DNA of 64,000 nucleotides from Nesterenkonia ebinurensis (GTDB lineage Bacteria; Actinomycetota; Actinomycetes; Actinomycetales; Micrococcaceae). The translations under genes and the position numbers were made by a program. Under the pieces are notes generated by a model, which was given only the letters and a program-made list of their open reading frames with translations, did not search any database and had not been told where the DNA came from. Of the stretch, positions 44,778 to 46,892 are shown piece by piece. Location of the stretch: NCBI RefSeq assembly GCF_008711175.1, contig NZ_VWNF01000011.1, positions 310,001 to 374,000 on the forward strand. The letters run 5' to 3'. Position 1 is the first letter of the stretch; each line of letters starts with the position of its first letter.

Positions 44778-45623
44778 TCAAGCATTCCACAGGCCATAGC
44801 TATCAGCCAGACTCGCGATCTTCTGCGCGCGGGCCAGGCGGGGCAGATAGGAGCCGTCGCCGATGGAGGCGCCGCGCTCGTGGGCCTCGATGAGCTCCTT
44901 GGCCCAGGTCACCTCGTCCTCAGACGGGCTGAGCCCATGGTTCACCAGCTCTACCTGAGCCCGGTTGAGCGAGAGCTTGCCGGTCATGCCCACAGAGGCA
45001 GTCACCCGGCACGCTCCGGCGATGGCGGCCTCATCCGCGTTGACCTCTGTCGGCCCGTCAATCGCTCCGGGCAGACCGCCCACCCGTGAAGCAATCACCA
45101 ACCGTGAGCGGGCGTAGGCCAGGGCCATCGGGTCTGCGGAGACACCCACGTCCTTGCGGAAGTCATTAGTGCCGAATGCCAGTCGGAAAGTACCAGGGGC
45201 AGAGGCGATCTGGGTGGCGTTCTCTACGCCCAAAGCGGATTCCACCAGAGCAATGACCGGGGTGCCGGCCCGCAGCCGCATAGCGGTGTAGGTGACCTGG
45301 TCCGGGCGCTCAGTCTCAGCGAGCATCACCCCTCGCAGACCGTCGGCCTGGGCCAGAGCAGCCACATCATCCTCCCAGTGCTCGCTGGTGGTGGGGCTGA
45401 TTCGCACCCATGCAGTCATACCGCCGTTGAGCGCGCTCATCACTGACTCGCGTGCTGCCACCTTAGCTTCATCAGGTACCGACGCCTCTAGGTCGAAGAT
45501 CACCGAGTCAGCCTCACTGGCCAGACCAGGAGCGAAATCTTCCTCTTTTGCCGCGTTGATCAGCAGCCAGGAACGGGAGAGTTTTGCTGGCAGAGCTGCG
45601 GCGCGGCGGTTCCGGATAGGCAT
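44778..45623 (-). CDS. HpcH/HpaI aldolase family (CitE-like CoA ester lyase)
   Basis: 281 aa TIM barrel. SWLLINAAKEEDFAPGLASEADSVIFDLEASVPDEAK gives the RSxLxVP-like start and the DLEDxV-like metal loop (here DLEASV); MLAETERPDQV, IALVESALGVENATQIA (catalytic Glu) and LAFGTNDFRKDVG (metal Asp) follow. Family members cleave malyl-, citramalyl- or citryl-CoA. The DLEDA to DLEAS change is conservative at the Glu/Asp ligand. Leaderless start: TAGGCT, 6 nt, ATG. Probably acts in branched-chain or organic acid breakdown with the HIBYL-CoA hydrolase. Confidence 0.85.
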   Translation of the reverse strand: MPIRNRRAAALPAKLSRSWLLINAAKEEDFAPGLASEADSVIFDLEASVPDEAKVAARESVMSALNGGMTAWVRISPTTSEHWEDDVAALAQADGLRGVMLAETERPDQVTYTAMRLRAGTPVIALVESALGVENATQIASAPGTFRLAFGTNDFRKDVGVSADPMALAYARSRLVIASRVGGLPGAIDGPTEVNADEAAIAGACRVTASVGMTGKLSLNRAQVELVNHGLSPSEDEVTWAKELIEAHERGASIGDGSYLPRLARAQKIASLADSYGLWNA

Positions 45624-45629
45624 GATTCC

Positions 45630-45635
45630 AGCCTA
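45630..45635 (-). promoter_or_regulatory. Leaderless -10 box (TAGGCT) of CitE-like gene
   Basis: On the minus strand TAGGCT, GGAATC (6 nt), ATG 45623. Confidence 0.55.
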
Positions 45636-45648
45636 CCGGAGACGGTGC

Positions 45649-45926
45649 TTGACACAGGCCCGGAGAAGGTCCCAGTATAGAGAGTCAGGGAGTTGTTCAG
45701 ATTTGAAGCATTCACGTCTGAACACCCCCCGGAATGGTCCGCTGTCCATTCCTGACATCTCCATATGAAGACGACATCAGAGTTTCCGTTCCCTCTGCTG
45801 TCATCACAATATGAAGTGAGAAGCACAGGCGCCGGGTGCTAAACATCCCACCCCCTCCGTGCAGTACCCTTGGGCGCGCTTCTCAACCGCTGGTGGGGGC
45901 CGCCCCCGTTCACGGCCCCCACCAGC
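45649..45926 (+). ncRNA. Candidate structured non-coding RNA
   Basis: The 576-bp gap 45624-46199 has no plausible ORF. TTGACA (45649-45654) and CAGTAT (45673-45678, 18-bp spacer) could be a promoter. Then come GTTCAGA/TCTGAAC (45695-45723), a run of six C (45725-45730), GGAATGG/CCATTCC (45731-45752), GACATCAGAG/CTCTGCTGTC with an internal loop (45773-45802), and a 14-bp GC-rich hairpin (45889-45926). The downstream lipoprotein gene has its own leaderless promoter, so this is not simply its 5' UTR. Strand and ends are inferred. Confidence 0.4.
45889..45926. terminator. Perfect 14-bp hairpin
   Basis: GCTGGTGGGGGCCG (45889-45902) pairs with 45913-45926 around a 10-nt loop. Possible terminator of the candidate RNA; no U-tract. 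Confidence 0.55.
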
Positions 45927-46187
45927 AATCTTCTCCCAGACTCTGTCCTGTCAGGCCAGTTCCGGATTGCCATAACACGTCGGCACGCTGCAGCGGCGCG
46001 TGCATCCGACCTAAGGGCCATCTCAGCTGGGACCCTGTGAGATTACGGCCTGAGCAGGTTCTTCGCTGCGCAAGGAGGCCGCAACCGCTTCGGACGAGCC
46101 ATCTCTGCCACCATACGCTCGCCTTTCGGCTCAATCGGGCAACAGAAGCGCCCCAGCGCTGATTCGTGGACTCCATGAGGTGACTCG

Positions 46188-46193
46188 TATCCT
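46188..46193 (+). promoter_or_regulatory. Leaderless -10 box (TATCCT) of lipoprotein gene
   Basis: TATCCT, TGAGGA (6 nt), ATG 46200. Confidence 0.55.
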
Positions 46194-46199
46194 TGAGGA

Positions 46200-46892
46200 A
46201 TGACTTCGACCTCCTCGCTGCGCGCTGCAGCCGCGGCTTTCACTGCTGCGGCACTGTTCAGCCTCACCGCCTGTGACAGTGATCCCACTGAGTCCGACCC
46301 GGACTCACCCGAGGTTGAGGGAGACTCTCCAGCAGAGGCACAGGAAGTTCCTGAGAATCCAATGCCCGAGCCGCAGTACGACAGCGATGAGACCGTGGCC
46401 CTTCCCGTCGGCCTGATTAGTCCAGCGGGGTACGACTGGGAGGTCTACGAGGAGGACGTGGACTACACCCCAGACACCCCGCATGGGCGGCAGCTAGCCC
46501 GGACTGAGCAGTTCGGCTGCCAGGACTACATCTCCCTGGTGGAGACCGTGCCGGTGGTTACCGACAACCCTGCTGAGACCGCCCTGGAGTATCTGCTGAC
46601 CCTGGATCGCACCACACACGGCAACCCGGCCTTCAACAACCCGCTGGCAGCCTCAGGCTTTGAGGTCACTGACGTGGAGCAGGAGGGCAGCACGGTGACG
46701 GTGCATCTCACGGGGTTCGCCAACAGCAGCTCATCCTGCCAGTCCTGGCAGATGCTCAAGCAGATTGAAACCACGGCTCGGGCCGCCTCGGGTGCCGAGC
46801 AGGTGGAGATCCTGCTGGACGGCGCACCGCTAGCCGAACAGCTCGGCCTGGAAGATCCCGGCCCATTGGCTATCCACCGTCTGCAAGACTGA
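46200..46892 (+). CDS. Lipoprotein with GerMN-like domain
   Basis: 230 aa. A lipoprotein signal ends LFSLTAC (Cys25), followed by a 45-residue acidic, Pro/Asp/Glu-rich linker. The C-terminal 110 residues resemble a GerMN fold: TALEYLLTLDRTTHG, VEQEGSTVTVHLTGFANSS, then LKQIETTARAASGAEQVEILLDGAPLAEQL, a Cys pair (FGCQD, SSCQSW) may form a disulfide. Anchored outside the membrane. GerMN proteins occur in envelope lipoproteins such as LpqB; role here unknown. Confidence 0.7.
   Translation: MTSTSSLRAAAAAFTAAALFSLTACDSDPTESDPDSPEVEGDSPAEAQEVPENPMPEPQYDSDETVALPVGLISPAGYDWEVYEEDVDYTPDTPHGRQLARTEQFGCQDYISLVETVPVVTDNPAETALEYLLTLDRTTHGNPAFNNPLAASGFEVTDVEQEGSTVTVHLTGFANSSSSCQSWQMLKQIETTARAASGAEQVEILLDGAPLAEQLGLEDPGPLAIHRLQD

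Follow-up and report, generated by a model that had tools for sequence, protein, structure and literature searches.

A likely structured RNA gene with C-rich hairpin loops between two genes of Nesterenkonia

A gene-free gap of 576 bp (45624-46199) in the 64,000-nucleotide stretch of DNA analysed here, hereafter the window, very likely holds a genuine structured RNA gene, and we can see little room for doubt on this point. The first-pass annotation had proposed that an unknown structured RNA lies in this gap, a proposal now supported by compensatory changes among relatives and by the lack of any match to Rfam at gathering score.

The locus and its predicted fold

The gap, which has just the length claimed for it earlier, is flanked on one side by a divergent HpcH/HpaI (CitE-like) gene (44778-45623, minus strand, PF03328) and on the other by a gene with a GerMN ('Germane') domain (46200-46892, plus strand, PF10646). 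Each neighbour has a promoter box of its own of the leaderless type, as had been supposed: TAGGCT lies just 5' of the ATG of the first, and TATCCT (46188-46193) just 5' of the ATG of the second. Leaderless-like TANNNT boxes a few bases from both neighbours' ATG (46188-46193 and 45630-45635) were seen in most of the genus genomes read.

Promoter-like elements had also been claimed in the gap, and their counterparts occur in all homologues, even though generic scans of the window call neither a promoter nor a terminator at the RNA locus. The -35 box TTGACA (45649-45654, plus strand) occurs in all 23 homologues, that of the window among them, and a hexamer with A at its second and T at its sixth position follows at 17-18 nt in the same 23 (spacers of 16-19 were tried). 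Within the window, the -10 position that is best kept in relatives is CAGTAT (45673-45678, plus strand, spacer of 18 nt), which overlaps TATAGA at 45676-45681; the first base of the -10 is C in 21/23 homologues. The -10 is absent from the generic promoter scan because these hexamers match TATAAT at only 3-4 positions. Transcription is predicted to start at about 45685.

The segment from 45682 to 45935 has a fold energy of -112.6 kcal/mol (z -8.4), and none of 200 shuffles was as good. The background, 40 segments of 244 nt taken throughout the 64 kb, has a mean z of -0.6 and a minimum of -4.0, and the stretch 3' of the last hairpin (45936-46180) gives +0.8. Among 21 homologues, window included, the mean fold z is -6.0 (range -3.0 to -8.6), and it is -3.2 (range -1.2 to -5.8) when the last 45 nt are removed from the same 21.

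In place of the three hairpins plus a 14-bp hairpin described earlier, the predicted fold gives a row of five on the plus strand, P1 to P5. The 5' hairpin P1 (45695-45723) contains the motif TTCAGATTTGAA at 45696-45707; in a pattern search, the palindromic motif TTCARRTTTGAA or a variant was found 11-18 nt after the -10 in 19/23 homologues, with this same site in the window, and it may be either a repressor site or a loop motif. By eye, the second half of the motif, TTTGAA, is often retained where the RNA stem has other partners. The C6 run that had been noted between the first two hairpins is indeed present between P1 and P2 (45725-45730, plus strand), but it is not conserved as such; the stretches that are conserved are the C-rich loops of P3, P4 and P5. 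The second hairpin, P2 (45731-45752, GGAATGG...CCATTCC), is missing in nine type II relatives, and in four loci (L032, L041, L050 and L051) its own loop is rich in C. P3 (45762-45813) is a long hairpin with the loop TTTCCGTTCC at 45783-45792. P4 (45817-45885) is a two-tier hairpin, with GAGAAG/CTTCTC as its outer stem and an inner stem of the GGGTGC type enclosing the loop CATCCCACCCCCTCC (45844-45858), a plan that recurs in a second genus (see below). The last hairpin, P5 (45889-45926), is the perfect 14-bp GC-rich hairpin reported earlier; it is terminator-like, with the loop CCCCCGTTCA at 45903-45912, the U tract after it is weak, and the generic scan calls no terminator there.

Compensatory changes among relatives had been suggested as a check on the candidate, and they were found in each of three alignments. 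A3 comprises 11 sequences that MAFFT aligned without structure; RIBOSUM scoring of this same alignment then supplied the structure. In A3, 18/42 pairs have changed on both sides, and 87.6% of cells pair, compared with 44.7-49.6% when the partners are slid. The covariation score of A3 is 0.278, with 0/500 shuffles as high; further pair types are less striking (22/500 shuffles). RNAalifold with default scoring gives few pairs on A1 and A3, and more with RIBOSUM scoring. In A4, nine type II sequences whose structure was likewise derived from their own alignment, 9/46 pairs have changed on both sides and pairing is 92.2% (41-46% when slid); further pair types are not above shuffles in this set (445/500). 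Finally, A6 comprises 23 sequences fitted to the model, and its figures of 36/42 pairs changed on both sides and 93.5% pairing, against 40-47% slid, are hence biased toward that model. Compensation is clear in P3, in its outer as well as its inner stem, and in the P5 stem.

On the minus strand the fold is just as good (z -8.5), as expected for a row of hairpins, and the strand is therefore decided by other evidence. Pair cells with G-U outnumber those with A-C by 36 to 12 in A3, 24 to 5 in A4 and 64 to 12 in A6, the excess to be expected from an RNA of plus-strand sense.

Distribution, losses and a form in a second genus

A blastn search with the 301-bp stretch gave matches in 11/98 genomes, including the source genome itself. 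Eight are other members of the genus matching at the same locus, and the two remaining matches are short and lie elsewhere (22 bp in G023 and 27 bp in G048). The HpcH/CitE-type gene is present in 30/30 genus genomes (Nesterenkonia including Garicola koreensis), and the adjoining gap was read in 29 loci, those where the start of this gene is complete; the start region is alike across all of them. The RNA lies directly in the gap in 21 of these loci, lies behind a beta-lactamase-family gene in 2, and is absent from 6 (G010, G002, G014, G007, G024 and G005), where the gap is less than 180 bp (74 to 178 bp by a blast-based estimate). The additional gene (PF13354) of the two exceptional genomes, at L050 1654-3009 in G025 and L080 508-1503 in G008, is on the minus strand between the HpcH/CitE-type gene and the RNA, which comes after it. 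Throughout the carriers read, the RNA is upstream of the GerMN gene and on the same strand, with the order kept. Two features of single loci were seen in passing: the HpcH/CitE-type gene of L041 (G009) is apparently split by a frameshift, appearing as two tblastn pieces, and in L017 (G004) a unit of ~80-100 bp appears by eye to be repeated between the RNA and the following gene.

Covariance models extended the reach of the search within the genus. An initial model, R1, in which 21 sequences were aligned simply by MAFFT, contained just 12 pairs because type I and type II stems were misaligned, and was dropped and replaced by R2 and R3. R2, which has 42 pairs and derives from 11 type I sequences, matches 23/30 genus genomes at E<=0.1, the best match of each being at this locus; the 12 of these 23 that are not in the model have per-genome E values of 2.2e-8 to 1.1e-3. 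Seven genomes go unmatched: the six with short gaps, and G026, whose contig covers the neighbour gene only at residues 76-281. Across 295 genomes of the family, R2 at E<=0.01 and with stricter filters gave 18 matches, 17 in the genus and one by chance. R3, built from all 23 homologues, matches 24/197 relatives at E<=0.05, namely the 23 and one chance match, and among 74 loci with named organisms it matches 17/24 Nesterenkonia or Garicola loci, with N. alkaliphila and N. alba among the carriers. Several other matches were set aside: that of R2 in G125 (L070), which is a tRNA plus a terminator; that of R3 in G085 (L211), the end of an ORF with a terminator-like hairpin; and, taken as chance, a second match in G012 (E 0.04), a partial match in G146 (E 0.77), the plus-strand matches in L021 and L148, and weak rows for L107, L111 and L115.

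How often has the RNA been lost? On a tree of 28 HpcH/CitE-type genes, which is a single-gene tree and partly weak, absence in six genomes requires four changes, and well-supported branches force two of these; shuffled presence labels were as good as the observed ones in 29/500 trials. A TATYCT box lies near the start of the GerMN gene in 6/6 genomes without the RNA, and a similar box is found in 19/21 with it. Given about four losses with both neighbours kept, together with the box in the genomes without the RNA, the RNA is therefore dispensable and unlikely to be the neighbour's leader; it is probably independent of the downstream gene. Such repeated clean absence provides natural knock-outs beside carriers.

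Outside the genus, R3 matched one of 26 family loci below E 0.1, namely L108 at E 5.6e-4 (99 kb searched). A reading of the equivalent gap, however, finds a shorter form in 5/8 genomes of a second genus group, of which four of the five carriers are two Citricoccus, Micrococcus terreus and a Micrococcus MAG; these names were assigned via equal coordinates of loci and, for M. terreus, also via a 100% match. In the shorter form, a hairpin of two tiers encloses the loop CAT..CCCCCC(C)TCC and is followed directly by a hairpin with a CCCCGTTC loop. It is probably homologous to the Nesterenkonia RNA, because the order of elements, the loop motifs and the place agree. The models detect it weakly: three of the four named blastn-positive loci match at E 0.0045 to 0.044, no model match was obtained for M. 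terreus among the named loci, and second-genus whole genomes searched at E<=1 gave no match at the right place.

The C-rich loops and the choice among explanations

The hairpin loops are 58-61% C and 8-14% G, compared with 38-41% C and 27-30% G overall. Conservation across all 23 homologues is 0.81 in loops, 0.73 in stems and 0.48 at other unpaired positions; the corresponding type I values are 0.88, 0.81 and 0.55, while in type II the order is reversed (loops 0.76, stems 0.89). The P4 loop of type II has no CTCC. Among the 23 genus homologues, CAU occurs within five bases 5' of the C run of the P4 loop in 14 and CUCC in 8, and the five second-genus loops carry both.

On balance, we lean toward a stand-alone, trans-acting sRNA whose C-rich loops would pair with G-rich stretches of mRNA and so lower the translation of several genes. 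The segment 45685-45926 would be the gene of an sRNA of ~240 nt with its own promoter and terminator, and the stems of its five-hairpin row would present exposed C-rich, G-poor loops, with CCGUUC in P3, CAUCCCACCCCCUCC in P4 and CCCCCGUUC in P5. These loops would base-pair mainly with Shine-Dalgarno sequences, and translation would be reduced in the manner of 6C, a well-studied actinobacterial regulatory sRNA named B11 in mycobacteria. From the sequence and its predicted fold we infer transcription, termination at P5, action in trans, pairing of loops with ribosome-binding sites, and repression. Loop pairing with G-rich start regions appears the most likely mode of action because the RNA matches no catalogued family, is absent from some species and exposes C-rich loops, and because B11 offers a precedent: in M. 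abscessus, one C-rich loop of B11, whichever of the two it is, is enough for repression of a reporter with a G6 tract in its leader (PMC10470900).

A search for targets gave mixed results. The complement of the type I P4 loop, GGAGGGGTGGGATG, has 65 matches with <=1 mismatch across the 30 genus genomes, three of them being the RNA itself, compared with 26 for the reversed string; the source genome has zero at this cut-off, and within the window, complements of the P4 loop at <=3 mismatches occur at chance level (12 vs 16 expected). Of the 30 matches that were fetched, ten begin an ORF of at least 60 aa, and no two of these ORFs are alike. In a test of 57 genes, whose starts were picked partly by Shine-Dalgarno strength, the P4 loop pairs better with start regions (-10.7 kcal/mol) than with coding windows (-7.6 kcal/mol). 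Shuffled P4 loops of the same composition, however, do nearly as well (-10.2), and shuffled P3 and P5 loops do slightly better than the real ones; since shuffled loops are about as good, no loop-specific targeting is shown by this test. A GAGG, GGAGG or AGGAG string occurs in only 28/57 of the start regions. A separate observation concerns G008, where GGAGGGGTGGGATG coincides exactly with the start region of the divergent beta-lactamase-family gene adjoining the RNA. Just 5' of the -35 at this locus (L051) lies CATCCCACCCCTCC, the P4-loop string of several other species and the complement of GGAGGGGTGGGATG; the P4 loop of G008 itself is altered. This match may be a coincidence or a hint at the kind of target.

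A stronger version of the pairing idea, which we regard as unlikely, is that the P4 loop comes preformed as an antisense to an entire ribosome-binding site, making the RNA a broad translation-start blocker that covers both the Shine-Dalgarno sequence and the start codon. The loop CAUCCCACCCCCUCC is complementary to GGAGG and AUG separated by a 7-nt spacer; in the second genus, CAUCCCCCCUCC is complementary to the same two elements with a spacer of 4 nt between them. If this were true, the further C-rich loops would raise avidity, and the RNA would be a multivalent stand-in for 6C. Against it stand the 30 fetched matches, which share no target gene, and the source genome, which contains no near-full complement.

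The same loops could instead bind a protein or the ribosome, with the RNA serving as a scaffold or decoy through its repeated CCGUUC and C-rich loops rather than by pairing with mRNA. CCGTTC is found in both the P3 and P5 regions of 14/23 homologues and in P3 of 18/23, and the type I loops are more fixed than the stems, both in favour of such binding; five type II homologues, though, have the motif in neither the P3 nor the P5 region, and what is kept is C-richness, not an exact motif, which leaves us doubtful of this explanation. Binding to RNA polymerase, with global control of transcription as for 6S, Ms1 or CoRP, we judge quite improbable. Its size class would be similar (Ms1 ~300 nt, 6S ~200 nt), and an RNA of this kind with close homologues in a single genus does exist, CoRP of Corynebacterium (PMC11077062). 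The predicted fold, however, is a row of separate hairpins with no long rod and central bubble, the neighbours of Ms1 are absent, and Rfam gives no match at gathering score.

The position of the RNA directly upstream of the GerMN gene, on the same strand and with the order kept in carriers, is what a cis-acting leader such as a riboswitch or attenuator would show, but the terminator-like P5 is followed by the unstructured stretch noted above (z +0.8), and the GerMN gene has its own TATYCT box in all six genomes that lack the RNA; we consider a leader very unlikely. Equally improbable in our view is an array of inverted repeats acting only as DNA, in the form of terminators or operators. The palindromic motif TTCARRTTTGAA of P1 could be a repressor site on that account, while the bias toward G-U over A-C marks one transcribed strand, promoter boxes accompany 23/23 homologues, and the nested P4 stem has a conserved loop. 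That the locus encodes a small protein is the least credible suggestion and can be given next to no weight: short ORFs exist on both strands, but a comparison of lengths in 21 homologues puts the longest closed ORF anywhere between 23 and 69 aa, and the compensatory changes fit an RNA.

Comparison with known RNA families

At gathering score, Rfam has nothing for the window or for 20 RNA-bearing loci, the source locus included. A permissive Rfam scan of the locus gave five matches, all taken as chance, the best being to mir-513 on the minus strand (E 0.035; 23.6 bits vs a gathering score of 72.1). Literature searches on Nesterenkonia small RNAs and transcriptomes, on 6C, on Ms1 and on sRNAs of Micrococcaceae or Arthrobacter returned no report of the RNA among the matches listed, and on Micrococcaceae or Arthrobacter sRNAs the Ms1 survey was the only paper listed. 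The second-genus form resembles ar7 (RF02342), an alphaproteobacterial sRNA, in having a CCCCCUCC-type loop followed by a terminator hairpin. The scores of two second-genus loci, 21.3 and 19.7 bits, fall well short of the gathering score of 60, however, and the phylum is another; the match was read as convergence or chance, and ar7 was not among the permissive matches in the window.

Ms1 and 6S fold as one long rod with a central bubble. The RNA described here is like them in size class and intergenic position and differs in its fold, which consists of separate hairpins rather than a single bubble-bearing rod. Genes next to Ms1 are annotated as HAD hydrolase, oxidoreductase, CpaE and the like (PMC9130861), whereas the neighbours here are HpcH/CitE-like and GerMN. 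CoRP of Corynebacterium is 516 nt long, lies between tRNA genes, binds RNA polymerase, and has its close homologues in a single genus, where synteny is conserved (PMC11077062). The present RNA likewise has its close homologues in one genus with conserved synteny, and CoRP differs in its length and in its tRNA-gene neighbours.

The nearest comparison is with 6C, in which two adjacent hairpins each have a run of about six or more C in the loop and the second C-loop hairpin acts as a terminator. Both RNAs are actinobacterial, and both have adjoining hairpins with C-rich loops, the last of them terminator-like. The P4 and P5 loops of the window, by comparison, contain C5 each, C-rich but interrupted, and P5 combines its C5 loop and terminator-like stem with the weak U tract at which the scan called no terminator. 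Where 6C has a pure run of C, the loops here contain CCGUUC and CAUCCCACCCC, and five hairpins in ~240 nt compare with the 75 positions of the 6C model. The 6C model (RF01066) has no match in 45200-46300 at E<=10, its threshold being 47 bits. A wider search found 6C in 0/30 genus genomes vs 8/78 genomes overall, with strict filters that might overlook weak copies; among 14 control genomes a signal appeared in just one, and that below the cut-off. The eight genomes with 6C have one match each, and two 6C loci of the same family (L045 and L047) adjoin other genes. R3 did not recognise the eight 6C loci (best E 3.4), and there is therefore no sequence link between the two families. By the membership criteria applied, namely model match, fold, loop runs and neighbourhood, the RNA is not 6C, Ms1 or 6S. 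It may nevertheless work like 6C, and an RNA family with several C-rich loops could show whether C-rich-loop regulation arose or was rebuilt more than once.
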